DNA from: Hanleya hanleyi
Lineage: Eukaryota > Mollusca > Polyplacophora > Lepidopleurida > Hanleyidae
Assembly (NCBI GenBank): GCA_036873755.1
Contig: JAVTVY010019051.1
Coordinates: forward strand, 1-64,000
DNA length: 64,000 nucleotides
Reading direction: 5' to 3'
The position numbers were made by a program, and so were the translations under genes. Positions 13,561-63,415 of this stretch are shown piece after piece. The notes beneath the pieces were generated by a model. That model had not been told where the DNA came from and did not search any database. It saw only the letters and a list, made by a program, of their open reading frames with translations. Positions within the stretch are counted from its first letter, which is position 1, and each line of letters begins with the position of its first letter.

Positions 13561-13639
13561 ACCAGTCTGTCATTACATTACATTACATGTTCAGATTAAA
13601 ACGTATTTCGGAACAATCTAACGTTGTAATTTCAGGAAA

Positions 13640-42890: not shown

Positions 42891-43418
42891 CACTACCAGG
42901 CCTGGGAGAGGGGAGGGGGGAGCAAAATCTTTCTGCGCCATCTCCGGAACGACCAAAATTGAGAGCTGACACTCCTTGACGTTATAATTTACCATATTGG
43001 GGTCATTTTGAGCCTATTTGCATAACCCCGAGTAGAGGATCATGGGCAAATTCAAGATGGCGGCCACGTGGGGTACCAGAAAATTTATGTTTTCGTCATT
43101 TTTCTTCAAAGTTTCTGCTTTTACGCGATGAAAAGTGGGCAGAAACTATTTTGTTTCCCATCACATTAATATTAACTAACTTATCACGCAGTTTTTGTGA
43201 AGAAATTGCTTAAATGAAAAAAATCGACCAAAAAATGCCGTCACTGTGACGTCGTAAAAACGGCCATCTTAGATTTTTTTAATATTTTCTGGTAGAGCTT
43301 GACCCAAGGGTATAATGTGGTAAGCTTTAGAGCCCAAGCGTACGGGGCAACAAAAAATAATTGGTGGGGGGGCGAAATTGCCCCTCCCCAGGTCCCAAAA
43401 ATCCAAGGTCAGATAGGG
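42891..43418 (+). mobile_element. piggyBac-like MITE 1 (TTAA duplication)
   Basis: The element begins CACTACCAGGCCTGGG and ends 'aaggtcagataggg', flanked by TTAA at 42,887-42,890 and 43,419-43,422. The interior holds 'gcgccatctccggaacgac', 'catgggcaaattcaagatgg', 'tgacgtcgtaaaaacggcca' and a G-rich tract near the right end. The same blocks occur in reverse order and strand in MITE 2. TTAA duplication with CCYT-type ends is characteristic of piggyBac elements. It has no transposase. Confidence 0.75.
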
Positions 43419-43439
43419 TTAAACTCGACCTCAATGAAA

Positions 43440-44035
43440 CAGTACATATGTACTATACATATGAACTATTATTGTTAACTATATATGTTCCGCCATAGCA
43501 GAAATTCGTTATCGCTTCCCTTTCTGTTACTACTATTCCTGTGTACACGCTTTATAATTTGTCAAATATAAAGATTGTGATCATGGAATTGGCACTAATT
43601 CATCGAAGTGACGCCCGATGATGCTCATCTTGGCGCCTTAACGCCGTATCTTAACGCATTAACACCCTATCTTAACGCCCTATTGTAACGCCTTGGCGCG
43701 TTTGTGGACCGTGCAGTCACACGCACATGCTTTGAACATTGGCTCTTGACCCTTGATGGAAGTGACGACATCACCTGAACTGACGTCATCACCGGAAGTG
43801 ACGTCATCGCCCGCTTGTCCGCTCACCTGATGGTGTCTCCAGTACCCCTGTGCACCCAAAAGCCTACGAGCTTTAGGGTCCAGGCGGCACCATCAGGTGA
43901 GCACACATGGGTGATGACGTCAGTTCCGATGATGACGTCAATTCCGGTGATGAGGTCACTGCAATCAAGGGCCCAGCACCACTGGTCAAAGCATGTGCGT
44001 GTGCTTGGACGGTTGACAATGCGATAAGGCTTTAC
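43440..44035. repeat. Palindromic segment between the two MITEs
   Basis: Two ~120-base arms pair around about 43,866: 'acacgcacatgctttgaaca' ... 'gctcacctgatggtg' on the left and 'caccatcaggtgagc' ... 'caaagcatgtgcgtgtgc' on the right. Each arm carries TGACGTCA copies next to CCGGAAGT/ATTCCGG, the same motif pair seen in the Polinton TIRs. Further left, 'gcactaattcatcgaagtga' and 'cttaacgccgtatcttaacg' (43,592-43,660) have inverted counterparts beyond the Polinton at about 57,500-57,610. The short plus frame at 43,815 is not a gene. Confidence 0.65.
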
Positions 44036-44047
44036 GTAGGATGTTAA

Positions 44048-44632
44048 CCCTATCTGGCCTGGGCTTTTTGGGACCTGTCCAGGCCTGGGGGGGGGGGGCG
44101 AAATGGCCCCCCCCCTAATTATTTTTCTTATCCCTTAAGCTAGGGGGCTGAAACTTACGATACTATACCCTTGGGTCAAGCTCTACCAAAAAATGTAAAA
44201 AAAATCCAAGATGGCCGATTTAATGACGTCACAGTGACGTCATTTTCAAAAACGGCATTTTTGGTCGATTTTTCGGTCGGATTTTCCGAATTTTTTATTT
44301 ATGCAATTTCTTCGCAAAAACTGCATGATAAATTAGGAAATATTAATGTCATGTGAAATAAAATAGATTTTGCCCACTTTTCATCGCGGAAAAGCAGAAA
44401 TTTTTAAGAAATACGACAAAAACACCACTTTTCTGGTACCTCACGTGGCCGCCATCTTGAATTTACCCATGATCCTCTGCTCAAGGTGTTATGCAAATGG
44501 TCTCAAAATGACCCCAATATGATAAACTATAAAGTCCCGAAGTTTCAGCACTCCATTTTTCGTCGTTCCGGAGATAGCGCAGAAAGTTTGGTAGGGGGGG
44601 GGGGGCATTATGGCCCCCCAGGCCAGGTAGGG
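44048..44632 (-). mobile_element. piggyBac-like MITE 2, inverted relative to MITE 1
   Basis: The element starts CCCTATCTGGCCTGGG and ends 'ccaggccaggtaggg', flanked by TTAA at 44,044-44,047 and 44,633-44,636. Its content is the reverse complement of MITE 1 ('caagatggccgatttaatga', 'cttgaatttacccatgatcc', 'cgttccggagatagcgcag'). Both ends are intact, so it is a separate insertion or half of a long fold-back unit, not a fragment. Confidence 0.75.
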
Positions 44633-44928: not shown

Positions 44929-44934
44929 CACCAT
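44929..44934 (+). repeat. Left target-site duplication CACCAT
   Basis: CACCAT directly precedes the left terminus ACTAGTATACAGTGCGC. The identical hexamer directly follows the right terminus at 57,442-57,447. Six-base duplications are the known hallmark of Polinton/Maverick integration. Confidence 0.85.
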
Positions 44935-44965
44935 ACTAGTATACAGTGCGCAGATAGAGCCACAT

Positions 44966-46110
44966 TGACCTTTGACCTCTGTGACGTCACGTGGAGGTGG
45001 AGAGGTCAAAGCTCAATGAGTGCACTTGAGCATGTACTGACCTGTATCCTCTCATCCCGTCCATCATCTGACCTTGGATCATGTTTAGACATGTTAGGGG
45101 ATTCCTCCGCGGTGATGCGGTTTGGCGGTGATGCGGTCTGCCTCCGCGGACAGAAAGTAGTCCCAAGTATATAGAGGGCTGAGGGTATGTCTGACTGTAT
45201 GAAATGCATGTACTGACTTGTGTCTGGGGGGTTTTCCATCACGGGGAGTGCGCAGGTGTGTGGTATGACGTCACTTCTGGTCTGCGTGAATCGGGCGTGA
45301 CCTGGGTATGACTGTATGAGATGTACTGACTTGGTTCTGGGTTTTTTCCATCACGGGGAAGTCACGTGATAGTTCAAGGTCATATTGGATGATAGGAATG
45401 CATGTACTGACCTGTTGTGAATATTGACTCTCATTGACCTTTGACCTAAAAAAATTGCATATTGGGGAGAATAACTACCTTCGAACACAGAAGAGTTCGA
45501 ATTGTGACCTTTGACAGCCAATCAGAAGTGAGTATTTTGACCTCGTCTGACTATGGAATGCATGCACTGACTTGGTTCTGGGGTTTTTCCATCACGGAGA
45601 GTGCGCAGGTGTGTGGTATGACGTCACTTCCGGTCTGCGAGTATAGAAAGAGTATTAAATAGCTTATTGACCTTTGACCTCAACAATTTGCATATCGTGA
45701 CCTTTGACAGCCAATCAGAAGTGAGTATTTTGACCTCGTCTGACTATGGAATGCATGTACTGACTTGGTTCTGGGGTTTTTCCATCACGGGGAGTGCGCA
45801 GGTGTGTTGTATGACGTCACTTCCGGTCTGCGAGTATAGAAAGAGTATTGGATAGCTTATTGACCTTTGACCTCAAAAATTTGTTTATCGTGACCTTTGA
45901 CAGCCGATCAGAAGCGAGTATTTTGACCTCGTCTGACTATGGAATGCATGTACTGACTTGGTTCTGGGGTTTTTCCATCATGGGGATTGCGCAGGTGTAT
46001 GACGTCACTTCCGGTCTGCGTGAATCGGGCGTGACCTGGGTATGTCTGACTGTATGGAATGCATGTACTGAGTTGGTTCTGGGGGTTTTCCATAATGGGG
46101 AGGTCACGCG
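44966..46110 (+). promoter_or_regulatory. Array of CRE, TGACCTTTGACC and ETS-like motifs in the TIR
   Basis: Perfect CRE palindromes TGACGTCA lie at 44,982, 45,266, 45,619, 45,812 and 46,000. The last three continue directly into 'cttccgg', giving TGACGTCACTTCCGG, a CRE abutting an ETS-type core. TGACCTTTGACC, the complement of a DR1 nuclear-receptor element, occurs at 44,966 and about 45,439, 45,668 and 45,861. 'agtgcgcaggtg' (NRF1/E-box-like) precedes each CRE. The right TIR repeats this set in inverse. The sites are seen directly; that they drive transcription is an inference. Confidence 0.55.
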
Positions 46111-46355
46111 ATCACACTAGTTCAAGGTCAGGGTTTTTCCATGAAACCATGGGAAGGAAGACTTATATATAACATAATCTATAGGTGTTGGACGATGTTA
46201 TTAGGACGAGTCTAGCATCCGTGCGACCCGAGGGTCGAGCGTTTATTCTGCAGTATATCTCCGGAAAAAATAAACAAACAAAAAGGGGATTCCCCTTTGG
46301 CATCGATGGTGCTGCCCTCTAGAGGCAGGGTGGGCGCATGTAAAATTTCTCCAGA

Positions 46356-46670
46356 TATAAAAAGCGGAACACGGACTTTACCGTAGAATATACTCCTATC
46401 AACCCTATCCCAAAGGGCTAATATCGGTCCCCGGGCTTATCGGGGCCTGCTTAGAGAGGTAGGGTGGGGGAGTGGGTGTATGTAAATTTAGGATTTGTCC
46501 CGAAACTATAAAAAGTGGAACACGGACTTTACCCCTAAAATAGGGGAAAACCCCTATCCCAACGGGCGAATATCGGTTCCCCGGGCTTATCGGGGCCTGC
46601 TGAGAGAGGTAGGGTGGGTGCATGTAAAAGTTTCTCCAGAAAAAAATATAAAAAGCGGAACACGGACTTT
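46356..46670 (+). promoter_or_regulatory. Three TATAAAAAG core-promoter-like units
   Basis: TATAAAAAG occurs at 46,356, 46,507 and 46,647, each followed at the same distance by 'ggaacacggactttacc'. The right TIR carries the same units pointing inward on the minus strand. They could be inward-facing promoters at both ends. Only the left set faces the known genes; the right set faces the 3' end of the gene block, where it could drive antisense transcription. Confidence 0.4.
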
Positions 46671-47381
46671 ACCCCAACAATACGGGAAAATTCCTATCAA
46701 TCCGGCCCGGCCGCAGCGCGTGCGGGTTATCCGGCCGCACGCCTGCGCGGCATCACCGGAAGTGCGCGGGTGAATTTCGGGCCAAAATAACCGCACCTCG
46801 AACCTCTATAGTTTTTCACTCCACCTGTTGCTCTTGTAACTTGTAACTCCTCGTCAAAATTTTTTGTTCTGGAATGCTGGCTCTTAACCTAGACCAAACC
46901 ATGTGCTTGGTCTGTGGGCTGATTTCATTGGTAAACGCAGAAGAGTTCCAATTGTGACCTTTGACAGCCAATCAGAAGGCGAGGTCACGTGCTCTCATTT
47001 GGACGAGTGCGCAGGTGTTTTTGTGCTGTCAACATCCGGTTTTCCCACTGGGTTTTCTCATCGTTCCTGTGTCTTCCATCCGGGTACTGTGGTTTTACAT
47101 CCGGGCCCTCATCTTACATCCGGGGTTTTCATGTTTACTGTCACGTGACCGGCAATGACCTTTAACCGCTGACATGAACTTTAACTTTTAACCTTCAACA
47201 TCCGCATGTAAACACACTCATAGTGGTTCCTCCAGCGTGGATGTGCTGTGATGGAGGGGCTAATAAAAGGATTGACCTGTAATCTTTGATTGTTGCTCTC
47301 TTTTTGAACTAACCAATCAGAATAGTACGTATCACGGACTACATCAGTAGAGCTACGTATAGGCGCGGATGTGTGACATGG

Positions 47382-47435
47382 TATATAAAACACGTCCCTC
47401 TGGATCCCACACCCCATTCCTACGGTTACAGAGCC
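47382..47435 (+). promoter_or_regulatory. Compact TATA promoter of the first core gene
   Basis: TATATAAA at 47,382-47,389 lies 54 bases before the ATG at 47,436, which leaves only a very short leader. Similar TATA-to-ATG distances recur before the next two genes. Upstream, 46,940-47,380 has no gene; it holds repeated 'catccgg' (about 47,030, 47,080, 47,099 and 47,116) and a CACGTGAC motif. Confidence 0.5.
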
Positions 47436-47720
47436 ATGACGGACACTCATCCCTATGCGACTCGCATTTTACAGCATGCGACCGTGGTTAATTCACTCAC
47501 GGGTTACAGAGCAGTGGTTCTGTCCATGTTTGGAGATGGCGACGACAACGACGGGCGACGCCAGATCCTGAAAGAGTTCACAGAAGCGGTCCTCGACAGA
47601 GTGCACTCGATGGAGAGGTGTGCTATCACTCACCACTACTGGACTATGACAGCCATCCTTGATGCCCGGACTATGGACCACGAGCGCTCACACCGGAACA
47701 GCGACGGCTCGTTGGCCTAG
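47436..47720 (+). CDS. Unknown small protein 1 of the Polinton-like element
   Basis: The 94-codon frame begins 'MTDTHPYATRILQHATVVNS' after a TATA box. An acidic patch 'GDGDDNDGRR' sits in the middle. I do not recognise it. A second frame from about 47,710 to 47,830 ('DPDAVPMTATEKERFFRAST') looks protein-like and may be its original C-terminus separated by a frameshift. The start was chosen for its distance from TATATAAA; an in-frame upstream ATG at 47,373 lies before the TATA box and is unlikely. Confidence 0.45.
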   Translation: MTDTHPYATRILQHATVVNSLTGYRAVVLSMFGDGDDNDGRRQILKEFTEAVLDRVHSMERCAITHHYWTMTAILDARTMDHERSHRNSDGSLA

Positions 47721-47819
47721 TAATGTTCTTTGCCCTATTGACCCTGACGCTGTGCCAATGACAGCGACAGAAAAAGAACGGTTTTTCAGAGCCTCCACAG
47801 ATGCGCTTATGTGCAACCG

Positions 47820-47962
47820 ATATATACTAAGGTCAGTCATAGTGTGCGTCATTCACCGATCGTCATTGGGGCAACCATGTCACCGAGGGACCTGACCATA
47901 AATACGAGAGACAGTCAGAGTGTGTGTCATTCACCACTCTTCATTGGGTCAACCATGTCACC
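47820..47962 (+). repeat. Duplicated promoter/leader, 78-bp period
   Basis: 'tcattcaccgatcgtcattg' and 'tcattcaccactcttcattg' are parts of two tandem 78-base copies, each ending in 'caaccatgtcacc'. Their ATGs are at 47,877 and 47,955. The second copy has 'cataaatacgagagacagtc', which corresponds to the TATA-bearing 'tataaatacgggagacagtc' leader found again at 48,287 in front of the integrase frame. So three related leaders exist in under 500 bases. Confidence 0.75.
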
Positions 47963-48404
47963 AGTCCTACGAGCCATCCTTCCCCTTACACCCCGGATGG
48001 GGTTACACGTCTATGAAGATAAAATCACCATCGTTGAAGACCGCGGAGATGTTTGCTGGTCGCGCGCTGAGACCGTATCGAATACGGTTACGCTACACCG
48101 TGACGGCTGGACCAAATTTAAACGGGTGTTGAGCGGTGAGCTCGACGGAAACCTCATCCACATAGACAATGCCATCTACGTACACCGTGGACCCTTCTTC
48201 CCACGCCTGGGCCGTTACCAAGACCCTACGCGAGGCTTCACCCTAGACCCCGATCCTTTGATCTCACGTCATAAACTTTTTCTCCCTATAAATACGGGAG
48301 ACAGTCAAATATTGTACCATTCACGTACTGACCATGACGGAGCATATAATACGGGCGTTTCTCAGCTTGACCCCCGAGGTCTTCCTGCACGTCTATGCGG
48401 ATAA
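47955..48404 (+). CDS. Unknown small protein 2 (HVYEDK family), possibly DNA-binding
   Basis: From the second leader's ATG the protein reads 'LHVYEDKITIVEDRGDVCW', 'VTLHRDGWTKFKRVLSGELD' and 'IYVHRGPFFPRLGRY'. The copy at 59,036-59,350 conserves this and ends with 'DLWTAFEKVLPTLDKLF', which is likely the true C-terminus. Here the frame instead runs into the next leader after 'FTLDPDP', so its end is altered. The same fold start recurs at the N-terminus of the integrase frame. The strand-strand-'TLxRxGWxxFK' layout loosely recalls PC4-type single-stranded DNA-binding proteins, but this is only a hypothesis. Confidence 0.55.
   Translation: MSPVLRAILPLTPRMGLHVYEDKITIVEDRGDVCWSRAETVSNTVTLHRDGWTKFKRVLSGELDGNLIHIDNAIYVHRGPFFPRLGRYQDPTRGFTLDPDPLISRHKLFLPINTGDSQILYHSRTDHDGAYNTGVSQLDPRGLPARLCG
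48287..48333 (+). promoter_or_regulatory. TATA promoter of the integrase frame
   Basis: TATAAATA at 48,287-48,294 precedes the ATG at 48,334 by 47 bases. It is the third copy of the duplicated leader ('acgggagacagtcaaat') and overlaps the 3' end of the small protein 2 frame. Confidence 0.5.
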
Positions 48405-49378
48405 GGTCGATATCATGGAGGAGGTAGGAGACATCTGTGATGCAGACCCTATACAACCGTGCCCGGCTCATATTCGTCTGTCCCGGGAGGGCTGGAACCG
48501 GATCATCGTGGGAGGAATAGATGCCCAGTGGCAAGCGGATTTGGTCGATATGAGCGCCTTTGCCAAACACAACGATGGGAATCGGTATATCTTGACGTGC
48601 ATCGATATCCTGTCGAAGTATGCGTGGGTGGTACCCATCCGGACGAAAACGGGGGCGAATCTCATAGCGGCGTTCAAGGACATCTTCAAGACCGGGCCCA
48701 AACCCTTGTATTTGCAAACCGACGAAGGCACGGAATTCCTCAACAGACCGTTCCAACAGTTTCTGAAAGCCCAGAAGGAGTTTTTCTTCCATCGTAAAAC
48801 GAAACCAAGGCTTCCGTTGTGGAAAGGTTCAACAGGACATTCAAAGGCCGCATGTATAAATATTTCACCTATAAGAATACAAGACGGTACATCGATGTTC
48901 TCTCGAAACTTGTGAGTGGTTACAATCGAGCCTATCACCGGAGTATAGAGAGAGCCCCCATTACCGTCACCCAACGCAATGAAGCCCAAGTTCGGCGTGT
49001 CTTGTACCCCAGGCAATCGCAGCGAACGCCGAAGGAGGTGTTCAAGGTCGGGGACCCTGTACGGATCAGTAAAGTCAAAGGTCAATTTGAGAAAAGTTAC
49101 TTGCCCAACTGGAGCGATGAGCACTTCCTGGTTAAACGGCGCCTACACCGAAAGCAGCGAGTCTATGAACTGGAAGATCTTCAAGGGGAACCGTTGCTAG
49201 GGACGTTTTACAAGACGGAATTACAGCCTGTCGTAAAAACAAAGCAAGACTACTACACAGTGAAGCAGATTTTGAAAACGGTACGCCGACGTGGCAAACT
49301 GTTTCATTTCGTCAAATGGCAAGGCTCGCCAGTTCCTTCAATTCCTGGGTCGCGGCCAACCAGGAGAAACGACTATAA
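48334..49378 (+). pseudogene. Retroviral-type (rve) integrase with chromodomain, frameshifted
   Basis: This is the Polinton integrase of the type known in C. elegans as F54H12.3. Residues 1-55 are a copy of the small protein 2 domain. The core begins at 'GGIDAQWQADLVDMSAFAKH' (first catalytic D in ADL), with 'LQTDEGTEFLN' holding the second D; a one-base frameshift at about 48,800-48,812 then leads to 'VVERFNRTFKGRMYKYFT', which holds the catalytic E. Next come 'YNRAYHRSIERAP', an SH3-like 'FKVGDPVRISKVKGQFEKSY' and the chromodomain 'YTVKQILKTVRRRGKLFHFV'. A second one-base shift at about 49,332 separates 'KWQGS' from the closing helix, whose stop is at 49,376-49,378. The usual N-terminal region of the enzyme is absent. 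Confidence 0.85.
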
Positions 49379-49428
49379 AGCCAGACACCACTACCGTCAT
49401 CCTTCATTCCACGTTCGACCACGGTGCT

Positions 49429-49896
49429 ATGGACAAACAGCAGCTGCCTCTGAACACAGCGTCTCCCAAAACGCGCAAAGCGCAAGTGGGCGCTGTGGTG
49501 ATATTGCTAACCCTGCTGAGTGTGTTGTACGGAGGTGTGTTTTACGACGTAGTCTATCTCAGCACTCTACTTAACCAACTTAGAACTCCAGCTGTGAGTG
49601 GCAGTCAAACCAGTCTACAGAACTTCTCTACACCAGTCACCTCCGTGATCGAAACGAGCCCAGTCATCACCACCACCAAACCACGTGTACAAGCCACATC
49701 GAGCCCCACACCAAGTATACAGTCAACACCTACACCAAGTACATCCACTACGTCTGAAAACCCACCGGATTTCATCACTCACAGTGAACGCCCATCGACA
49801 ACGACGACCGACGTTGTACCCACCACCACTCCAGTTCACTCGTACCAAATTTACAAGAGCGGGTTACCACGACAGCGCATACAGCTTGAACCTTGA
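49429..49896 (+). CDS. Type II-like membrane protein with Thr/Ser/Pro-rich domain
   Basis: The intact 155-residue protein starts MDKQQLPLNTASPKTRKAQV, followed by one hydrophobic helix ('GAVVILLTLLSVLYGGVFY', about residues 21-39). After that lie about 110 residues very rich in Thr, Ser and Pro with repeats such as 'STPTPSTSTTSE', suggesting dense O-glycosylation. The second copy (59,794) keeps the N-terminal basic segment and the helix but has a less Thr-rich ectodomain. It ends with 'HSYQIYKSGLPRQRIQ', conserved in copy 2 as 'HSYQIRHSQLARQRI'. The stop TGA overlaps the ATPase start in a (T/A)TGA arrangement. Its role is unknown; a virion membrane or surface protein is possible. No known family was recognised. 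Confidence 0.7.
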   Translation: MDKQQLPLNTASPKTRKAQVGAVVILLTLLSVLYGGVFYDVVYLSTLLNQLRTPAVSGSQTSLQNFSTPVTSVIETSPVITTTKPRVQATSSPTPSIQSTPTPSTSTTSENPPDFITHSERPSTTTTDVVPTTTPVHSYQIYKSGLPRQRIQLEP

Positions 49897-50535
49897 ACCC
49901 TCCGTGGCGGCATCCCTTGACTTGCGTCATCGCAGGACCGACGGGCTCCGGCAAAACGCACTTCGTCAGGAAGCTCCTTCAACACGCCGACAGCATGATC
50001 ACACCACCCACTCATGTGGTGTTATGTAGAATGGCAGGCAGCGTATTCAGCAATGCCCCATATCACGTTCGTGGAAGGCCTACCTAACCTGGCCGACTTG
50101 GAACCCGACACCTTGGTGGTTCTGGATGATCTCATGGCGGAGACGGATGCGCGGGTCACCCAACTCTTTACCAAAGGCAGCCATCATCGACGGCTCAGCA
50201 TCATCTACATTGTGCAGAATCTGTTCAGTAAAAACAAAGAACATCGGAACATCAGCTTAAATGCCCACTACCTGGTGGTCTTCAAAAACCCGAGAGATAC
50301 CACTCAACTGCTGCACCTGGCGAGACAGATGTATCCCGGCCGCACACCGTTTGCGTTGGAAGCCTTTAAAGATGCGACAACCCCTCAGCACGGGTATATG
50401 CTCTTCGACCTCAAGCAAGCCATCCCCGATCACCTTCGACTACGGACCGGAATTTTCCCGGAGAGACCCACCACGTTTACATGCAAAAATAACACACCCA
50501 CAGTGGCTTCAAAAACCTGGGGTGTGTGTGTTTGA
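49893..50535 (+). pseudogene. A32/FtsK-like DNA packaging ATPase, frameshifted
   Basis: The Walker A motif is intact in 'CVIAGPTGSGKTHFVRKLL'. The first frame then shifts by one base at about 50,000-50,014, after which the protein continues as 'WCYVEWQAAYSAMPHITFVE' and 'TLVVLDDLMAE' (Walker B, hydrophobic strand followed by DD). 'HHRRLSIIYIVQNLF' is the sensor-like strand with N/Q. The usual ATG start is TTG here (ATG in copy 2), another sign of decay. The C-terminus differs by a one-base shift between copies; in copy 2 it continues through 'CVFDDEDNK'. The enzyme would drive genome packaging into the capsid in a complete element. Confidence 0.88.
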
Positions 50536-50545
50536 TGATGGGGAT

Positions 50546-50551
50546 AATAAA
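50546..50551 (+). terminator. AATAAA after the ATPase gene
   Basis: AATAAA within 'gataataaaaag' follows the ATPase C-terminus. The same signal is conserved at 60,682-60,687 in the second copy, which supports it as a real polyadenylation signal dividing the gene block into an integrase-ATPase transcript and a capsid transcript. Confidence 0.5.
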
Positions 50552-50605
50552 AAGAATTAATACCACATCATGGTTGACTTTGTCTCTGTTTTAGCATTAG
50601 TTGTC

Positions 50606-50948
50606 ATGATGTCTGCGCGAGTACGGAACACGCCCCGACGCTCCGTGTATTGAAGACGGCCCCACCCGAGTTGGTCCGAATCATTGTACGCGGTGCGGAC
50701 CCTGGGCTTGTACGCTATCTGTGCGAGATCGGGTACAACCTGTTAAAAGGCAACGTACCACTGACTCCGGTTCAGAAGACCAAGTTGACTAAGCATAAGA
50801 CAGGTCTCCGAACCCTAGTCCAGAAGCGAGTCTCTCAAACACAAAAGAAAAAGGTGTGCAGAAAGGCGGCTTTCTCGGGGCCATCTTAGCACCGTTGGCC
50901 GCTTCCGTGCTGGGTCCAGTATTGGGTGGACTCTTCGGCCGACAATGA
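50606..50948 (+). pseudogene. Small basic protein with hydrophobic C-terminus, virion-core-like
   Basis: The gene starts at tandem ATGs (50,606/50,609) with 'MSARVR', conserved in copy 2. After a one-base shift it reads 'PELVRIIVRGADPGLVRYLC' and 'YNLLKGNVPLTPVQKTKLTK', a motif I associate with Polinton-type elements of invertebrates. A Lys-rich stretch 'RVSQTQKKK' follows. A further one-base shift at about 50,852 leads to the hydrophobic, glycine-rich end 'GGFLGAILAPLAASVLGPVL'. The stop at 50,946-50,948 overlaps the next ATG (ATGA). The combination of a basic body and an amphipathic tail suggests a minor virion protein, by analogy with adenovirus core or lytic peptides; this is inference. 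Confidence 0.65.
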
Positions 50949-51771
50949 ACCACACGAATAAAATGGTCCTCGTCGAACCACGGCTCCTTCAAAACCTCCA
51001 ATCGCCCTACCCTGTCCCACCTACGGTGAAGACCATAATCACCCTCGATGAAGAGATGCAACAGATCTTACAAAGACCGGGGTTAAGCGACAGTAAGAAA
51101 GTACAACGGTACAATGAGACGCTTCAACATGGACCAATACAAAACCCTCTTTACCCCAGCACCACCGCCACCACCACCACCACGCGACACACCGCCGACC
51201 TCAGCACCGCTCCAACAGCCGCCATTACCAGGGATACCACTCACCGCCCCACAGTGGGTGGAAGATGGAGTCCTGAAGAGTGTACCTGCATCGTTCAAGA
51301 AACAAGCTGGCCTGGTATTACAACGGATGAAACAGAATTCTAACATGACTTGGAATGATAAAGGTGAACTACTGGTACAGAATCAGGTGGTCCCCGGTAC
51401 CCACATTACGGATTTAGTGAATGACCTGATGCGTCAACGCAGGTCGCACATGGATCCTCGAGGATGGGAGGTCTTCGCTCAAGGCTTGAAAGACATGCAT
51501 GTACCACAGGAATTGGTGGGGAACCCCCCAGCCCTGGGCCTGGATGCAGCGGACCCAGAAATCGCCGAGTGGCCCACTACCTTCTTGGGAAGCCGTGTGG
51601 GAACCGGAGTCACCCCCCAAAACACCACAACAACGGGCACCTTCTTTTCACTCCTTTAAAAAGCCACCCTTGATCAAGACACCCTACATCTCCAGAGCCG
51701 TGACACGTAGCAAGTCACCGCGACGAACACGACGCCGGTCACAACCGCCCAAGGCCTGGAACACCTACTAA
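50945..51771 (+). pseudogene. Conserved virion-associated protein of Polinton-type elements, frameshifted
   Basis: The N part 'MNHTNKMVLVEPRLLQNLQS' leads to 'LDEEMQQILQRPGLSDSKKV' and 'QRYNETLQ'. Copy 2 continues smoothly through 'RYMPFIDQYKTP', whereas here a deletion shifts the frame at about 51,125. The second frame has a proline run, then 'GVLKSVPASFKKQAGLVLQR', 'MTWNDKGELLVQNQVVPGTH' and 'ITDLVNDLMRQRRSHMDPRG', followed by 'MHVPQELVGNP'. A further shift at about 51,600 leads to a basic tail 'SRAVTRSKSPRRTRRRS' that copy 2 also conserves. The basic tail suggests DNA or capsid-interior binding. The family's exact role is not known to me. Confidence 0.7.
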
Positions 51772-51804
51772 AACCAACAGCAGCAGCAGGACAAGTCAGT
51801 CGCC

Positions 51805-52593
51805 ATGTTTTACCTCACCCTACCCAGTAACAGTTCTCTGGATGTGTTTCCTGACAACACCTTGGCCAAGTACCTGACCCAATTACCTCAACCGTTGCAT
51901 TTACCTGGACGATGGAAATGTGGCCTCGTGGATATCCAATACCCTTACTCGTGGTACAAGGTTCGAGCCAATGAAGTGTCGTACGAGGTGACTTACGAAG
52001 GAAAAAACACCCGACTCACCATCCCCGAAGGCCAATACGATACCCCCAAGGAGTTCTTGCAGGGGCTGACAAGAATGTTGCATTATAAGGCTCTACGGGA
52101 GGTCACGAATACTTCAACACCCGTCAAATCCTTTCCCTTCAAGAATCAAGTGGACTTCGATTACAACGCACACAACGACAAGGCACAGATCCTCCTCACC
52201 GCCAACGTGAGTGTCGTACTGAGTCCTATCCTACAGCAAATGCTGGGTCTCGCTCACCCAACCTACACGGGTCCATCCGAGGACCATGGCCAGATCCCGA
52301 TGGATATGAAGTCGGGTATGTACGGATTCTACGTCTACTCGGACGTGGTCGACAACCACATCATGGGCAATACCAGCACACCTCTGTTACGGGTGGTCCC
52401 CATTAAAAAGACGTATGGAGATCAAATCACCCACAGTTTCACCCACACGCTCTACCTACCCGTAAGACAAACCGGCATCAACAGCATCACGGTGGATATA
52501 AGAGATGACACGGGACGACCGGTGGCATTCGAACGAGGAAAAGTGGTGCTGACACTTCATTTTCGACACGCACGTGCTCCCCACTTTGTATAA
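51805..52593 (+). CDS. Penton-like minor capsid protein (single jelly roll)
   Basis: The intact 262-residue protein opens with 'MFYLTLPSNSSLDVFPDNTL' and 'LPGRWKCGLVDIQYPYSWYK', the typical start of this Polinton family. The middle has 'YGFYVYSDVVDNHIMG' and 'PLLRVVPIKKTYGDQ', and the end 'GRPVAFERGKVVLTLHF'. Alternating beta-rich segments are consistent with a single jelly roll that would occupy the capsid vertices. It is one of the few large genes in the element without a stop or frameshift, although its middle looks shorter than in relatives I recall. Its stop overlaps the next gene (TAATG). Copy 2 retains only fragments at 61,640-62,186. Confidence 0.8.
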   Translation: MFYLTLPSNSSLDVFPDNTLAKYLTQLPQPLHLPGRWKCGLVDIQYPYSWYKVRANEVSYEVTYEGKNTRLTIPEGQYDTPKEFLQGLTRMLHYKALREVTNTSTPVKSFPFKNQVDFDYNAHNDKAQILLTANVSVVLSPILQQMLGLAHPTYTGPSEDHGQIPMDMKSGMYGFYVYSDVVDNHIMGNTSTPLLRVVPIKKTYGDQITHSFTHTLYLPVRQTGINSITVDIRDDTGRPVAFERGKVVLTLHFRHARAPHFV

Positions 52594-52997
52594 TGAATGT
52601 GCCCTACGAGTGCGGTGCACGCAGTTATATGGACTATTATGCCCAACAGGCCGGGGGTGGCCTTCCGGTATTTGCAGGTGCACGCATGCAACGAGGATAT
52701 GGGCTGGGGAACATACTCGAGAGTATCGTCAAAACGTTATTGCCCTCGGTGACGCGTGGGGTGAAAGCGATCGGCAAACAAGCGGTTCGCAGTGGACTGC
52801 AAGTCGCCGGTGATGTCTTGGGTGGTACGGCACCCAACGAAGCCTTGAAACGGCGGCCCAAAGAAGCGGGAGGCGTCTTGGTGGCCACAGCACAACGCAC
52901 CGTAGGGAATAAAAGACCTGCACCACCGAGACCACGCAACAGTCGAGATCCGACCCAGCGACGACGCACATCGAAGACCCAGGATATCTTTTCTTAA
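52593..52997 (+). CDS. Small GLG-motif virion protein, adenovirus pVI/pX-like candidate
   Basis: The intact 134-residue protein contains 'GGGLPVFAGARMQRGYGLGN' followed by an amphipathic helix 'LESIVKTLLPSVTRGVKAIG' and 'LQVAGDVLGGTAPNEALKRR'. The C-terminal third is Arg/Lys/Pro-rich ('KRPAPPRPRNSRDPTQRRRT'). The order of a Gly-rich segment, an amphipathic helix and a basic tail is common to minor capsid-interior proteins placed next to MCP in Polinton-like and adintovirus elements. It starts on the TAATG overlap and ends two bases before the MCP start codon. Its function is inferred only from layout. Confidence 0.6.
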   Translation: MNVPYECGARSYMDYYAQQAGGGLPVFAGARMQRGYGLGNILESIVKTLLPSVTRGVKAIGKQAVRSGLQVAGDVLGGTAPNEALKRRPKEAGGVLVATAQRTVGNKRPAPPRPRNSRDPTQRRRTSKTQDIFS

Positions 52998-52999
52998 AC

Positions 53000-54299
53000 A
53001 TGTTCTTAATCCACGCAGAGCCCTGCCCCTCCACCAACAGTGAATTTGATTTGTGGACCGTCCCGCCCACACAGACCAGTGCCAAACAAGGATTATGGGT
53101 GGAGCATCTCCCGCTCTCCAGCATCAACAGGCCCATCGAGTTCACCATCAGTATTGCAGATACGGCCTATGTGCATTTAGCCCGTACATACTTGTACGTG
53201 AAAGCCAAGGTCGTCAACGGGGATGGCTCCAGAATCGTCCAAGCTGCAACGGTGGGCCCGACGAATCTCTGGCTGCACTCTATGTTTCAACAGGTGGATA
53301 TTTTTATCAGCGACAAACTCATCAGTGACTCGACCAACACGTACCCCTATCGAGCCTACATCGAGACACTGTTGTATGGACGAGAGGCTAAAGAATCTCA
53401 GCTGACAGCCGCTTTATTCTACCAAGACACAGTCGAGCACATGGACACGGTGGACAATGAAGGATATAACAAACGGAAGGCTTTCACCGCGAACGGCGTC
53501 TCGATGGATCTCATGGGTCGACTGCACGCAGACCTCTTCATGCAAGACCGGTACCTCTTGAACAAGATCCCCCTCAAAATCTGACTGATACGGGCGCCTC
53601 CGACCTTCGCCTTGATGGCCACTAACGTAGACGGGCATGCAGCTGACTATAAGATTGTCATCCAAGACGCAGTCCTGTATATCCGAAAAGTGAAACCGAA
53701 TCCAGCCGTTCAACTGGGACACATGACAGCCTTGGAAACAAAACCAGCCCAGTACCCTATCCGAAGTGTACAAACCAAAGTGTTCTCTGTGCCTGCTGGA
53801 AATATGAGCGCCAACAAAGGAAACCTGTTCCTGGGGGAACTACCCAAACGACTGATCCTGGCCTGTGTGGAAAATACTAGTTTCAGCGGAGCCCACCCAG
53901 AGAACCCGTTTGACTTTCAACATTTCGGCATCAACGTTGTGGCCCTGCATGTGGACGGACAACAGGTCCCAGCCACGGCCTTAACGCCGAACTTTGGGCG
54001 GGAATTTCATTCGAGCCTGTCAGAGCCTGTTTACAGCCACCGGTCAAATCAACCAGGACTAAGGGAATATGATCAGTCGGGAGGACTACGCAAACGGATA
54101 CACGTTGTTCTGTTTCGATCTGACCCCCACCTTAGAGAACGACCATCAGCTGGCCCTGGCCAAGCAAGGCAATTTACGGTTGGAAATCCACTTTGCGCGA
54201 GCCCTCGGGACCACCGTCGATGTGATCTCCTACGCCGAGTTTGACAACATCATTCAAGTGGACAAGGCGCGCAACGTCCTGTGTGACTTTGCCACCTAA
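53000..54299 (+). pseudogene. Major capsid protein (double jelly roll), broken in three places
   Basis: This is the Polinton MCP, related to the C. elegans protein known as F54H12.2. It begins after 'PCPSTNSEFDLWTVPPTQTS' and shows 'TYLYVKAKVVNGDG', 'LWLHSMFQQVDIFISDKLIS', 'NTYPYRAYIETLLYG', 'MGRLHADLFMQDRYLLNKIP' and, after a TGA at 53,582-53,584, 'YKIVIQDAVLYIRKVKPNPA' and 'NLFLGELPKRLI'. A one-base shift near 54,003 and a TAA at 54,060-54,062 follow, then 'MISREDYANGYTLFCFDLTP' and 'VISYAEFDNIIQVDKARNVL'. Copy 2 reads CGA where the first TGA stands, so this stop is a private CGA-to-TGA change. In a live element the protein would form the capsid shell. Confidence 0.92.
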
Positions 54300-54300
54300 C

Positions 54301-54774
54301 ATGGATACAGACCAGATAACCACCGTGCTGGATAATGACCCAGGGACACGTATGGTCTTTCAAGGGGTGTTCGCCCGAGATGTGTTCCCATTAGACCGTA
54401 TGTATCCTGCTGCTTACGTTCTCAGCACGGACCCGATGGATCGGCCCGGTGAACATTGGGTGGGCGTGTACTTGACAGAACATCAGGTCGAATACTTTGA
54501 CCCGTACGGCCTGCCACCCCTCCATCCCGATTTAACAGACTTCATGGATCACGGCACAGAGACGTGGTGTTGAAACAGTCAAACGTTGCAAAGCCTGACC
54601 AGTAGCGTGGGCGGACAATATTGCTTGTTTCACCTGTACCATCGATGCCGGGGAAGAACCTTATCTACCATCGTACAGATGTTTGACGAGTACTCCAAGG
54701 CCGAGGACCGCGATGTACTCGTATATGACTGGGCCGCCCATCATTTCGATGTACAAGCCCTGCTCTGGGCTTAA
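54301..54774 (+). pseudogene. Adenain-like (C5) maturation protease, stop codon and lost active-site Cys
   Basis: The protease starts at 54,301, two bases after the MCP stop. 'GVFARDVFPLDRMYPAAYVL', 'GEHWVGVYL' (catalytic His) and 'VEYFDPYGLPPL' (acidic residue) are recognisable. A TGA at 54,571-54,573 interrupts 'GTETW'; copy 2 has TGG there. The catalytic loop reads VGGQYC (about 54,610-54,628), where the family and copy 2 have a Cys at the second position, so the nucleophile is replaced by Gly. The protein ends 'VLVYDWAAHHFDVQALLWA'. The family cleaves capsid proteins during virion maturation. This copy would be inactive twice over. Confidence 0.88.
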
Positions 54775-54862
54775 GTTCTTTCACGAAAAGCCCCCTGTTC
54801 TGGGCTTAAGCTCTATCGATTTCAATGTACAAGCCCCTGTTCTGGGCTTCAGTTTTCACGTG
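54750..54862 (+). repeat. Short tandem duplications at the protease 3' end
   Basis: 'tgtacaagccc' plus 'tgttctgggctt' occurs in three partial copies at about 54,749, 54,788 and 54,828, duplicating the last codons of the protease into the 3' UTR. It implies local slippage or repair after the gene was laid down. Copy 2 has only one 'atgtacaagccacgttctga'. Confidence 0.7.
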
Positions 54863-54896
54863 GTTGTTCTCACGTTGTTGTTGTTATTTATTGTTG

Positions 54897-54902
54897 AATA
54901 AA
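54897..54902 (+). terminator. AATAAA at the end of the capsid gene block
   Basis: AATAAA follows the protease by about 120 bases, in 'gttgaataaaaaac'. It is the first canonical signal after the last gene. Copy 2 has 'gttgaaaacaaatgagatct' at the same place and so has lost it. From here to the inner edge of the right TIR (about 55,115) nothing else is present. Confidence 0.5.
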
Positions 54903-55114
54903 AAACAAAATGAGATCTCACCAAAAAAACCTGTGTGTTTTCTATATGAGCATAAAACAAGCGGCCATGAAGGCTATAACAGACATGTGGGGATTCGGTC
55001 AAACTGGCCTTGAACACCGTGGAGTAAGTAGCCAATCAGTGGCCTAGGATGGGGCCAAATGTAACCAATCAATGTCCAGAAAACAATGCAAGGGCACTGC
55101 AGTAAAATAGAGAG

Positions 55115-57441
55115 CAAATGAAATCAGCCCACAGACCATGTACATTTTTTGGCCTAGGTTGAGAGCGGGCATTCCAGCACAAAAATTTTGACGAGGAGTT
55201 ACAAGTTACAAGAGCAACGGGTGGAGTGAAAACACTATAGAGGTTCGAGGTGGGGGAAGACATGACCGAATCCGCACATGTCACCGCGAAGACGGCGAGT
55301 GGAGACTCCTACAACACCTATAGATTAAGTTTATTACTATAAGTTCCACGGTTTCATGTATTTTTTCGTGCCAATACGGTTCTGGGGGAAACTGAGGGTT
55401 TCCCACTGGCCATTTAACATGGATATAGTGCAGGCGATATTGTGGGGGACCCTGTGCATTCAATGGGTGCTTGGGGAGGGCGGATAAAGGCTATCTATTG
55501 ACCGGGAGAGGGCCGAGCCTTGCCGGAAGGGGGGGCCTTTGACCTTTTTACCTGAATATGACCTTTTGACCCGAAATTCACCCGCCCACTTCCGGTGATG
55601 CCGCGCAGGCGTGCGGCCGGATAACCCGCGCGCGCTGCGGCCGGGCCGGGCCGGGAAGGGTTGATAGGAGTTTTCCCCTATTGTAGGGGTAAAGTCCGTG
55701 TTCCGCTTTTTATATTTTTTTCTGGAAAAACTTTTACATGCACCCACCCTACCTCTCTCAGCAGGCCCCGATAAGCCCGGGGGAACGATATTCGCCCTTT
55801 GGGATAGGCGTTTTTCCCTATTTTAGGGGTAAAGTCCGTGTTCCACTTTTTATAGTTTCGGGACAAATCCTAAATTTACATACACCCACTCCCCCACCCT
55901 ACCTCTCTCAGCAGGCCCCGATAAGCCCGGGGACCGATATTAGCCCTTTGGGATAGGGTTGATAGGAGTATATTCTACGGTAAAGTCCGTGTTCCGCTTT
56001 TTATATCTGGAGAAATTTCACATGCACCCACCCTGCCTCTAGAGGGCAGCACCATCGATGCCAAAGGGGAATCCCTTTTTTGTTTGTTTATTTTTTTGCG
56101 GAGATATACTGGACAATAAACGCTCGACCCTCGGGTCGCACGGATGCTAGACTCGTCCTAATAACATCGTCCAACACCTATAGATTATGTTATATATAAG
56201 TCTTCCTTCCCATGGTTTCATGGAAACCCCTGACCTTGAACTAGTGTGATCACGTGACCTCCCCATTATGGAAAAGCCCCAGAACCAACTCAGTACATGC
56301 ATTCCATACAGTCAGACATACCCAGGTCACGCCCGATTCACGCAGACCGGAAGAGACGTCATACACCTGCGCACTCCCCATGATGGAAAACCCCCGGGCC
56401 AGAACCAAGTCAGTACATGCATTCCATACAGTCAGACGAGGTGAAAAAATAGTCTCTTCTGATTGGCTGTCAAAGGTCACGATATGCAAATTTTTGAGGT
56501 CAAAGGTCAATAAGCTATCTGATACTCTTTCTATACTCACAGACCGGAAGTGACGTCATACCACACACCTGCGCACTCCCCGTGATGGGAAAACCCCTGA
56601 ACCAAGTCAGTACATGCATTCCATACAGTTAGACGAGGTCAAAATACTCACTTCTGATTGGCTGTCAAAGGTCACGATATGCAAATGTTTGAGGTCAAAG
56701 GTCAATAAGCTATTTAATACTCTTTCTATACTCGCAGACCGGAAGTGACTTCATACCACACACCTGCGCACGCTCCGTGATGGAAAAACCCCAGAACCAA
56801 GTCAGTACATGCATTCCATACACTCAGACGAGGTCAAAATACTCGCTTCTAATTGGCTGTCAAAGATCACAATTGGAACTCTTCTGTGTTCGGAGGTAGT
56901 TTTTCTCCACAATATGCATTTTTTTTCGGTCAGGTTCAATGAGAGTCAATATTCACAACAGGTCAGTACATGCATTCCTATCATTCAATATGACCTTGAA
57001 CTATCACGTGACTTCCCCGTGATGGAACAAACCCAGAACCAAATCAGTACATCTCATAGTCATACCCAGGTCACGCCCGATTCACGCAGACCAGAAGTGA
57101 CGTCATACCACACACCTGCGCACTCCCATGATGGAGAAAAAACCCAGACACAAGTCAGTACATGCATTTCATACAGTCAGACATACCCTCAGCCCTCTAT
57201 ATACTTGGGACTACTTTCTGTCCGCATCACCGCCAGACCGCATCACCGCCAAACCGAATCACCCCCAGGGGGAATCCCCTAACATGTCTAAACATGATCC
57301 AAAGTCAGATGATGGACGGGATGAGAGGATACAGGTCAGTACATGCTCAAGTGCACTCATTGAACTTTGACCTCTCCACCTCCACGTGACGTCACAGAGG
57401 TCAAAAGTCAATGTGGCTCTATCTGCGCACTGTATACTACT
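55115..57441 (-). repeat. Right terminal inverted repeat of the Polinton-like element
   Basis: It mirrors 44,935-46,937. Inner landmarks are 'aaatgaaatcagcccacaga' (55,115) and 'gacgaggagttacaagttac'. The middle carries 'gccccgataagcccggg' (55,765-55,935) and 'tcgtcctaataacatcgtcc' (56,153), and the outer part ends CGCACTGTATACTACT at 57,441. It is about 300 bases longer than the left arm owing to indels, including a unique stretch around 55,270-55,500. The minus-strand frames in it are by-products. Confidence 0.88.
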
Positions 57442-57447
57442 CACCAT
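57442..57447 (+). repeat. Right target-site duplication CACCAT
   Basis: CACCAT immediately follows the right terminus ...CTGTATACTACT and is identical to the hexamer at 44,929-44,934. Beyond it, 57,470-57,620 contains 'aatgaacgtcctctact', 'gttaaggcgttaagata' and 'gatgaataagtgtcaatttc', all of which have inverted partners left of the element. Confidence 0.85.
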
Positions 57448-58338
57448 GTTGTAGCCACATAAGGGCAGGAAAATGAACGTCCTCTACTCCCTTAAGAGAT
57501 TAAGGCAGGGTGTTAAGGCGTTAAGATAGGACGTTGAGACGTAACGAATGAGGTTGACTGGCGTTGACGCGCGTCACTGCATTTCGATGAATAAGTGTCA
57601 ATTTCATAGGATATATCGACCATTCAGAGCTTCTGTGTTATTTCACTCTGATGTTGAAGCGTTACTGTGTTACGTCCATAGAAGCAGCAGTATCTCAAAG
57701 ACGTGCACAGTCGACGTTCGACCGTCAACATGTGTTAAACTCTGAGTGTGAACACATATACATGGGTATAAAAACACTGAGGCGTGAACATCGGCGGATA
57801 TGAGGGCCCAACCACTACTGATACGCTGATAGACTTCGTCACAGAGAAGCCCGAGGGGAGAAGAATCCATCTTTTGGGGGTCGTATTATGACAGCGGCTA
57901 TTAATACTCCTGCTACGGCGATCGAACGTATGCGAACATAACTAATTATCACGCAGATGACCAGTTTGACTTCTTCTTATCCCTGGACGAATGACCAATC
58001 TTCATAGGCATATACGAACCAAAGTTGACGAAGATAGCCTGAGAGCAGTAAGGAGCTATATACTGTATGTCTGTCGAAGGCACCAGGTGGGTACCGGAAC
58101 GTCAGTCAGAATAAAATTTATGTATCCAGATGATCAGTTTTACTTGTTATTATACGGACAAGATAACTTACAACAGCTGTACACCACCATGATCATCGAC
58201 ATCAGCAAAATAGTCATGATTAAATGTATGAACAGTGTAGCCTGCTGCCGCTGACATCGGTCCATCATGATGTTATATCACTCCTCTTCACTCATTCATT
58301 CACTCCCTCACTCACTCACTCAATCGCGTCTAACGCAC

Positions 58339-58380
<42 letters not shown>

Positions 58381-59030
58381 GCACACACGCACACACACAC
58401 ACACACAAACGCATCCCCCCCACACGCATAAACTCACACACGGTAGCCTACACTTAACGGCCAAAACAGTAGGAGATAGGCCCGTAAATATGTCAATAGT
58501 TTCTTTTCTCACCATTTTCTTCTAATAACAAAACACAAATTACAGTCGAGCAGATAAGTGAGTGAGTGAGTGAATAGGGTTTAACGTCGCTTTCAACATT
58601 TTTTCCAGCTATATCACGACGGGGAAGGGAAGGGAAGGGAGGGGAGGGGGTACCTACTTGTAACAGATCTAATGCTGCCATTTTATAGTGCTGTCATTTC
58701 CGGGGTCAATACATCAAATGGTGATACAGCCATCAAACTTGGCACGAATGTTCCCATCAGATCATATTTCAAGAAAAGCTAGCATTTTGAGCCACTTCAC
58801 AACACATGTATGAGCATTCATACAACGATGGACCATACATTCGTTTAAAGAATAACAAGAGACTATGACTCCCTTACACCACACCTATCGTCACCATAAC
58901 ACTCTTCTTTAAATATGTATCAGTTTAATAAAACCACCATGTTTCGATTGTCATTTTGCTTAGGATGGTGTCAAAAGACCCAGTGCATCAACCCGAGGCT
59001 AGGGGCGGTTTGAATAGCATGTGTTTTACA
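57448..59030. other. Inter-element spacer with microsatellites and a SINE tail
   Basis: No gene is convincing here. A 'tataaaaac' at 57,769 and an 88-codon frame at 57,991-58,254 ('MTNLHRHIRTKVDEDSLRAV') exist, but I recognise no family. At 58,338-58,408 there is a (CT)n(CA)n microsatellite. At 58,555-58,620 'gagtgagtgagtgaa' followed by 'taacgtcgctttcaacattt' is the reverse of the SINE tail seen at 28,308 and 29,456. A (GGGAA)n run follows at 58,622-58,650. Confidence 0.6.
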
Positions 59031-59035
59031 TCTTC

Positions 59036-59350
59036 ATGATGTTAGACGTCTATGAGGATAAAATCACCATCGTGGAAGACCGGACTGTCTGCTGGTCAGG
59101 CTCTGACTCCATATCGAATAGGGCTACGCTACACCGTGAGGGCTGGACCAAATTTAAACGGATTTTGAGCGGTGAGCTCGATGGTAACCTCATACACATG
59201 GAGAATGGCATCTACGTACACTGGGGCCCGTTCTTTGCACGCGTGGGTTGTTACCTGGACCTTATTGGAAGTTTCACCTTAGACCCTGATCTTTGGACGG
59301 CCTTTGAGAAAGTGCTGCCTACTCTGGACAAGCTGTTCACAACAAGCTAG
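59036..59350 (+). CDS. Small protein 2, second copy (N-terminally replaced)
   Basis: The frame starts at tandem ATGs (59,036/59,039) and from 'DVYEDKITIVEDRTVCWSGS' follows the 47,955 protein through 'ATLHREGWTKFKRILSGELD' and 'IYVHWGPFFARVG'. It ends with 'LWTAFEKVLPTLDKLFTTS', giving the likely original C-terminus. The first ~15 residues of the other copy are absent. The frame itself is still open, which may be by chance in a decayed element. Confidence 0.5.
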   Translation: MMLDVYEDKITIVEDRTVCWSGSDSISNRATLHREGWTKFKRILSGELDGNLIHMENGIYVHWGPFFARVGCYLDLIGSFTLDPDLWTAFEKVLPTLDKLFTTS

Positions 59351-59712
59351 CACGCAACGATGCCCAAGTCCGGCGTGTCTTGTACCCGTTTTCAACCCAA
59401 ACCACGATCGAAGGAAGTGTTCAAGATCGACGACCCTGTATGGATCAGTAAAATCAAGGGCAAGTTTGAGAAGAGTTACCTCGCCAACTGGAGTGATGAG
59501 CACTTCGAGATCAAACGATAGCCGCGGGTAAATGAACTGGAAGATCTCCAAGGGAAACCGTTGCAAGGGACGTTTTACTACGCGAGTCACAGCCCGTAAC
59601 AAGAACAGCACAAGACTACTGCATCGTGAAACGCATCCTGAAAATGGAGCGACGCCGAGGTAAGGCGGCGCATCTCGTGAAATGACAAGGGTGGCCCAGC
59701 TCGTTCAATTCC
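59351..59712 (+). pseudogene. Integrase C-terminal remnant, catalytic core deleted
   Basis: Straight after small protein 2 the sequence aligns with the first copy from the codons for 'DAQVRRVLYP' onward (first-copy position about 48,985). The whole DDE core is therefore missing. The SH3-like region, 'SYLANWSDEHFEIKR', and the chromodomain region at about 59,620-59,690 are recognisable but contain stops and shifts, including TGA inside the 'K-W-Q-G' segment. Confidence 0.8.
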
Positions 59713-59793
59713 TTGGTCCCGGTCAATCAGGCTATAAGGCGAGGAATCACAGCCGGTAGCATTCATTCCACGCTCAGCCATGAACACAGTGAT

Positions 59794-60275
59794 ATGGACA
59801 AAAAGCGAGCGGCTCTGAACATCAGGTTCCCCAAAACGTGCAAAGCACAAGTGGGTTTTGTGGTGACACTGCTAACCCTGCTGGCTATTTATACATGTAT
59901 GAAGGTGTATTTTATGACGTTGTTTAACTCATCTCTCCACTCAACCAACCCAGTTTATAAAACTACCAATGAGTGCCAGTCCACATACCACATTCACGCT
60001 AGCACCCATCAATCTCGTGATCGAAACGACCCGCCCAGTGATTACTGCCTCCACATGGAGTCCAAGTGTACAGACCAGGCCAACATCGAGCCCCACAATA
60101 TTGAAGTGACCACTATGCCTGAAGACCCATTTTATTTGATCACACCCACTGGACACCGTAACGTGCCGACAACGGCGACAAACGATGACGCACCCACTCC
60201 GACGGCCCCGGTTCACTCGTACCAAATTCGACATAGCCAGCTGGCACGTCAGCGGATACTCCTCCAACCATGGAC
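59794..60275 (+). pseudogene. Membrane protein, second copy, read through into ATPase
   Basis: It starts MDKKRAALNIRFPKTCKAQV, with the hydrophobic segment 'GFVVTLLTLLAIYTCMKVYF'. The ectodomain keeps 'TPTAPVHSYQIRHSQLARQR' at its end but has fewer Thr repeats than copy 1 and several Cys and His residues. The ancestral TGA/ATG overlap is changed to ATGG, so the frame runs on into the ATPase remnant. It helps define the true start and end of the gene in both copies. Confidence 0.7.
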
Positions 60276-60700: not shown

Positions 60701-60777
60701 ACACCATCCTTGTTCATGTTGTCTCTCTAGACCCACAGCAAAAAGGGCAGGGTTGTACGTTCCAGCGTTAGTTGTAC

Positions 60778-61611: not shown

Positions 61612-61639
61612 ACCGGAAGGGGCGGCAGGAAAGCTCAGT

Positions 61640-62460: not shown

Positions 62461-62462
62461 AT

Positions 62463-63414: not shown

Positions 63415-63415
63415 C

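Follow-up and report, generated by a model that had tools for sequence, protein, structure and literature searches.

The closest described systems to the element reported here are the Polintons/Mavericks and their viral relatives. In the excerpted text of PMC4642659, all Polintons are said to encode a DNA polymerase B (PolB) together with an rve integrase, the named Polinton-like exception being Tlr1, which has a helicase protein. Intact vertebrate Mavericks have a mean length of 16.9 kb, and AGTAGT is the commonest Maverick terminus in vertebrates, according to the excerpt of PMC8097293. Genomes with adenovirus-class virion genes but no recognisable PolB or integrase are reported in the part of PMC11071296 at hand. 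A literature search, judged by titles and abstract openings and no proof of absence, returned no animal Polinton that lacks PolB and has an integrase and capsid genes. Here, we describe an element of this kind in positions 1 to 64,000 of contig JAVTVY010019051.1 from the chiton Hanleya hanleyi (assembly GCA_036873755.1; this 64,000-nucleotide stretch is the window). The element is probably a decayed, non-autonomous Polinton/Maverick whose lineage has a rearranged gene order and whose PolB was lost in an internal deletion left of the integrase.

The element spans positions 44935-57441 (12.5 kb), with CACCAT directly outside each end. Its genes all lie on the plus strand, in the order sm0, two leader repeats, sm1, a third leader, sm2-integrase, TM, ATPase, X, Y, penton, Z, major capsid protein (MCP) and protease. 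A second, truncated copy follows downstream. The labels PM, PZ and PW are applied to window genes by position only, the names being taken from PMC8097293. The terminal inverted repeats (TIRs), open reading frames (ORFs) and other features are as follows.

44929-44934: left target-site duplication, CACCAT
44935-46929, plus strand: left TIR, which starts ACTAGTATACAG and contains tandem repeats of about 193 bp
47436-47720, plus strand: sm0, a 94-aa ORF downstream of a TATA box, no Pfam match
47815-47963, plus strand: two TATA-leader repeats in tandem, of which the first precedes only a few codons and the second leads sm1
47955-48404, plus strand: sm1 ORF, resembling copy 2 only to about 48281, its C-terminal part replaced by the sm2 leader
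48283-48345, plus strand: third leader repeat, preceding sm2
48334-48915, plus strand: N-terminal part of sm2 running into a truncated integrase (rve core), joined at about 48490-48510
48801-49340, plus strand: C-terminal half of the integrase, to the start of the chromodomain
49429-49896, plus strand: TM gene, with a single hydrophobic stretch and a tail rich in Ser/Thr; the stop codon overlaps the ATPase start
49893-50535, plus strand: packaging ATPase, Walker A AGPTGSGKT, one frame break
50650-50889, plus strand: X, related to the gene after the ATPase in L002 and L004, at the position of PM
50945-51659, plus strand: Y, whose L002 and L004 relatives follow X, at the position of PZ, one frame break
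51805-52593, plus strand: penton (minor capsid) protein, 262 aa, open
52593-52997, plus strand: Z, 134 aa, at the position of PW
53000-54299, plus strand: putative MCP, one in-frame stop and one frame break
54268-54774, plus strand: protease, one in-frame stop; its L002 relative weakly matches Adenovirus endoprotease
55117-57441, minus strand: right TIR, whose inverted end is AGTAGTATACAG, the canonical Maverick (AGT)2
57442-57447: right target-site duplication, CACCAT
59036-63892, plus strand: second, truncated copy, with sm1, the C-terminal part of the integrase, TM, ATPase, Y, penton, Z, MCP and protease

The outermost 40 bases of the two arms are identical at 38 positions, and the end motif TATACAGTGCGC has just two occurrences in the window, at 44940 and, in inverted form, at 57425. 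The hexamer CACCAT is common in the window (35 times on the plus strand, 14 on the minus), so that its position is what matters, and it stands exactly outside the two termini; the chance of one given pair of 6-mers matching is about 2.7e-4. Read inverted, the right end is AGTAGT, and the left end, ACTAGT, is one base off (AGT)2. Across 1,990 alignment columns the TIRs differ by 40 transitions, 54 transversions and 16 indel events (Kimura two-parameter distance 0.049); the right arm is about 310 bp longer, 55255-55564 having no counterpart in the left arm. TIRs with conserved termini and a 6-bp target-site duplication are thus present, as in Polintons/Mavericks, and at 2.0-2.3 kb these TIRs exceed the 46-1,447 bp of intact vertebrate elements given in the excerpt of PMC8097293. 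Just left of the insertion lies a palindromic structure (42926-44589; inverted pairs 43025-43221/44291-44487 and 43232-43371/44107-44246), and short pieces related to it recur right of the insertion, at about 57471-57540.

Relatives were sought in prokaryote genome records with a penton alignment as query, and six loci (L001-L006) resulted, evidently eukaryotic-element DNA in symbiont or other bins; scans of a viral contig set by penton, penton alignment, MCP alignment, TIR end and ATPase gave no relatives. A PolB profile made from the polymerases of L002 and L006 was run on the 1645 six-frame, stop-to-stop ORFs of at least 25 aa in the whole window, and none of them reached E 1 (best E 3.1). 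Yet the same profile detected polymerases that were outside the model, in two pieces in L005 (1e-179 and 8.5e-105) and in three pieces even in the decayed L001 (3e-21, 5e-8 and 2e-6). A tblastn search of the window with the L002 protein, which is a PolB by Pfam DNA_pol_B_2 (2.8e-9), had a best E of 0.44. No protein-primed PolB being found among the 1645 ORFs, in either copy, the element is classed as a non-autonomous derivative and not as an autonomous Polinton. A PolB with an N-terminal OTU-like domain, as in adintoviruses, is likewise not found in the window. Pfam recognised neither a helicase nor a helicase-polymerase fusion, of the kind in Tlr1 or Polinton-like viruses, in 12 window ORFs, a set that does not include X, Z and sm1 of copy 1.

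The other genes were identified with profiles, each derived from three or four relatives. In the window they matched the integrase (INT; E 2.4e-43 and 7.1e-33), the ATPase (2.3e-53 and 8.8e-14), the penton (6.2e-60), the MCP (1.1e-52, 2.5e-37 and 1.4e-18) and the protease (3.7e-19 and 9.5e-6). Among 10 window ORFs compared with Pfam, rve was the sole family above cut-off (1.1e-10); the L002 relatives reached Adeno_IVa2 above and Peptidase_C5 just below cut-off. The element thus has the rve integrase of a Polinton/Maverick, though its N-terminal domain is missing and its frame broken, as well as a packaging ATPase and an adenovirus-like protease by profiles from relatives. The identity of the penton is supported by the predicted fold: its model (predicted local distance difference test score, pLDDT, 84) has the mavirus penton as best PDB match (E 2e-10), followed by adenovirus penton bases, and in a viral library it matches proteins of Tetraselmis viridis virus S1, adomaviruses and an adintovirus. 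The putative MCP is assigned through relatedness to the relatives alone, and a piece of it had no match among PDB sequences. An Rfam scan at gathering score gave no match.

The small genes could be placed less readily. None of sm0, sm1, the sm2 start and TM matched anything in the six loci (best E 0.84); a database search for homologues of sm1 gave 4 candidates but no hit at E 0.001, and the copy-2 form of sm1 matched no Pfam family. The low-confidence model of sm1 (pLDDT 51) had no PDB match at E 0.001, and the PC4-like or Pur-alpha-like DNA-binding fold considered for it is a candidate that may or may not apply.

A sequence-only reading of this stretch had described an element with both boundaries, TIRs of about 2 kb, a perfect 6-bp duplication, and a core of integrase, ATPase, capsid, protease and small genes without PolB, and had warned that chance copies of CACCAT beside non-matching ends would undermine the boundaries. 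The description holds on every count: the hexamer recurs, but the end motif is unique to the two termini, and the PolB profile is blank. To it are now added that several genes are broken, that the integrase has lost its N-terminal domain and that a second copy lies at 59036-63892.

The element resembles the vertebrate Mavericks of PMC8097293, as far as its excerpt goes, in its 6-bp duplication, (AGT)2//(ACT)2 ends, rve integrase, packaging ATPase, penton, MCP and protease, and in having genes at the PM, PZ and PW places. Unlike them, it is without PolB, and its ATPase-X-Y block stands between INT-TM and the penton, on one strand, whereas theirs is beside PolB. With the adintoviruses and meldviruses, as excerpted from PMC11071296, it shares an rve integrase with a chromodomain and adenovirus-like virion genes; adintoviruses, however, are defined there by PolB, whereas this element keeps the integrase and is without PolB. 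Tlr1 of Tetrahymena is also similar, having in the excerpts of PMC4642659 and PMC11071308 an rve integrase, an ATPase, capsid proteins and no recognised Polinton PolB, but its large helicase protein has no Pfam-recognised counterpart in the 12 window ORFs.

The integrity of the integrase is informative on how PolB may have been lost. All five INT-bearing loci (L002-L006) encode a conserved domain of about 60 residues before the core, with a YTLH motif near its end. A model of this domain built from four loci still found L004, outside the model, at E 1e-9, and it found no match in the 1645 window ORFs (best E 1.2). The domain occurs in 43 of 56 database homologues of the window integrase ORF, from a search that admitted proteins of about 106-338 aa only, full-length integrases not being candidates. 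Three of the 13 homologues without it were checked (P0121, P0124 and P0129) and start inside the core, P0121 being the closest of all (84%); the closest that reach the N-terminus, P0122 (73%) and P0123 (74%, from the chiton Liolophura sinensis; LOC135475650), both have the domain. Roughly the first 55 residues of the window integrase are instead related to sm1 (30%, E 1.5e-9). A genuine fused sm2-integrase gene was considered and rejected, since sm2 is cut relative to sm1 and the sm2-like N-terminus is found in none of the 56 homologues. As sm2 is cut in the middle and INT before the core, there is a deletion at about 48490-48510; the reading frame of the fusion is itself lost between 48768 and 48801.

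Two more scars adjoin this one. The sm1 gene runs into the sm2 leader, copy 2 keeping its own C-terminus, and one leader is without a gene, so that three scars (sm2 cut, sm1 end lost, leader without gene) fall within one interval. The three TATA-containing leaders before the small paralogous genes (47815-48345) have a mean column identity of 78%; the gene of the first would have been lost, and deletions of this kind could plausibly have used the repeated leaders as substrate. Assembling long TIRs and tandem repeats is difficult, and a collapsed or mis-joined repeat might have taken PolB out of the contig. This is very improbable, given that the scar lies within coding sequence and that copy 2 is also without PolB, with different breakpoints.

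The order of genes in the relatives indicates where PolB might have stood. It is present in four of the six (L001, L002, L005 and L006); L003 begins just before its integrase. In L002, L005 and L006 the order is PolB-ATPase-...-INT-penton-Z-MCP-protease on one strand, with PolB the leftmost gene seen, and in the window element INT is the leftmost of the conserved genes in a one-strand row that likewise ends in the protease. L002, whose contig carries the name of an Escarpia laminata endosymbiont, shares eight genes with the element (INT, ATPase, X, Y, penton, Z, MCP and protease; 33-61% per piece), but reads PolB (1401 aa)-ATPase-X-Y-INT (360 aa, with the N-terminal domain)-TM-penton-Z-MCP-protease. 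INT or TM directly precedes the penton in 6/6 relatives, while the ATPase block intervenes in both window copies (ATPase-X-Y in copy 1) and in none of the relatives. A small TM gene stands before the penton in L001, L002 and L004; the window TM gene, after INT, has no match to it and may or may not be related.

In L001, TM-penton-Z-MCP-protease is faced by PolB from the opposite strand (remnants at 3774-4769, minus), opposite the protease. A PolB lost from the right, on the minus strand between the protease and the right TIR, with the sm2/INT scar unrelated, would fit this arrangement. Of the six loci, L001 has the most similar penton (41%) and the most similar first MCP piece (55%), although for the last MCP piece L004 is nearer (60% vs 54%). 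In the element the protease and the right TIR are only about 340 bp apart, and the protease gene has a short duplication at its 3' end. However, neither a truncated gene nor a PolB fragment was found on that side, and all genes of the element lie on one strand, unlike those of L001. We consider a loss from the right to be quite improbable.

The second copy, 1.6 kb downstream of the element, is collinear with the first, with 66-82% of bases identical per aligned piece, and extends nearly to the end of the window. X was not detected in it. It runs from the sm1 end straight to about residue 225 of INT (L002 numbering), and so has no sm2, INT N-terminus or catalytic core. The interval is that of the copy 1 deletion, but the deletion itself differs. 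Across all 14 segments compared (1,015 codons), synonymous divergence (dS) is 0.97 and nonsynonymous divergence (dN) 0.29, a ratio of 0.29 (0.12 to 0.51 per segment); with the reading frame shifted by one or two bases, the ratio for these segments rises to 0.70 and 1.33. This ratio shows that the copies diverged mainly as functional elements, with their proteins under selection, and INT-TM-ATPase-Y-penton is the order of a functional lineage. Because TM abuts the ATPase in both copies, PolB would not have been adjacent to the ATPase in their ancestor.

Along the element dS is uneven, at 0.4-0.6 in sm1, INT, ATPase and Y and above 2 in the penton and MCP part a, which may come from recombination between lineages. 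The MCP gene of copy 2 contains an inserted repeat (62955-63079, 96%) that recurs in the 8.2-11.1 kb region. Insertion of copy 1 into copy 2 was also considered and rejected: there is no element sequence left of 44934 and no TIR sequence in 57448-59036, short repeats only.

The existence of an anciently diverged copy with the same order and also without PolB bears on a further possibility, that a capsid-plus-integrase lineage had dropped PolB before the copies diverged and borrowed a polymerase from PolB-bearing Polintons or the host, the deletions being later decay. The tight TM-ATPase junction in both copies would agree with this, PolB being already uncoupled from the ATPase in the ancestor. 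So would L004, on a contig filed as mussel-associated, in which a duplicated integrase (5659-6719 and 8621-9645, 81%) flanks ATPase-X-Y and no PolB is detected across 5.6 kb upstream of the first integrase. L004 is itself decayed, however, and both window copies are deleted in the very interval that a leftmost PolB would occupy; in addition, all Polintons encode PolB and an rve integrase in the excerpted PMC4642659, and a Tlr1-type helicase was not found in the 12 window ORFs. An ancestral loss of this kind thus seems unlikely. A related proposal, rather unlikely as well, is that in an animal Polinton lineage an integrase cassette replaced PolB upstream of the packaging ATPase, giving a capsid-forming, integrating satellite of PolB-bearing Polintons, with L004 as an intermediate.

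Returning to a deletion derivative, we infer that PolB stood left of the integrase and went with the scar deletion, because both copies are deleted beside the integrase, INT is leftmost in a one-strand row and the element is some 4 kb short: 12.5 kb against the 16.9-kb mean, a deficit of about one PolB (4.2 kb in L002). Several points weigh against this reading. The window holds neither a PolB-bearing sister nor any PolB fragment that we could find, both copies being without it; TM abuts the ATPase where L002, L005 and L006 have PolB; L004 has a second INT at that place; and the observed deletions need not have held PolB. The sequence-only reading had offered two explanations, internal deletion or a PolB-less capsid-plus-integrase lineage. 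The first is borne out in part, by a scar exactly at the small protein 2/integrase junction, with the INT N-terminus gone and a truncated small-gene paralogue fused, the former presence of PolB there being our own deduction. The second gains from copy 2, in which the ATPase block is equally misplaced, and is nevertheless the weaker of the two.

An ancestor with PolB would have replicated by protein priming from its TIRs and integrated by means of its rve integrase. Had the deletion preceded the insertion, the element would afterwards have depended on a relative for PolB, and probably also for an intact integrase, in order to move; had the insertion preceded the deletion, the copy would simply have decayed where it was. 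Either order would fit the one site observed.

The genes of copy 1 carry 2 in-frame stops, one in MCP and one in protease, and 4 frame breaks that are clear (one each in INT, ATPase, Y and MCP), with a fifth likely near the end of INT. From the divergence of the TIRs about 5 stops and about 22 indels would be expected over 5,565 coding bases, a rough expectation as the TIRs contain tandem repeats. Since lesions are fewer than predicted, the capsid genes may have been intact when the element inserted.

Elsewhere in the window, weak packaging-ATPase-like traces on both strands at 30233-31069 (ATPase profile E 7e-4 and 0.015) are perhaps a third, very old Polinton remnant. By eye, the ORF list at 6734-11395 and 12725-13814, with reverse transcriptase, integrase-like and related ORFs, resembles a Gypsy-type long terminal repeat element and another retroelement, and an open, single-exon ORF of 387 aa at 36544-37707 that resembles a seven-helix G-protein-coupled receptor is probably a host gene.

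As a deletion derivative, the element would be a Polinton without PolB that retained its ends and capsid genes, and it would add a gene order in which the ATPase block stands between integrase and penton, away from the PolB site of its relatives. Were the PolB-less lineage true instead, Polintons would no longer be defined by the gene pair behind their name, and a Polinton satellite akin to virophages would exist in animals.

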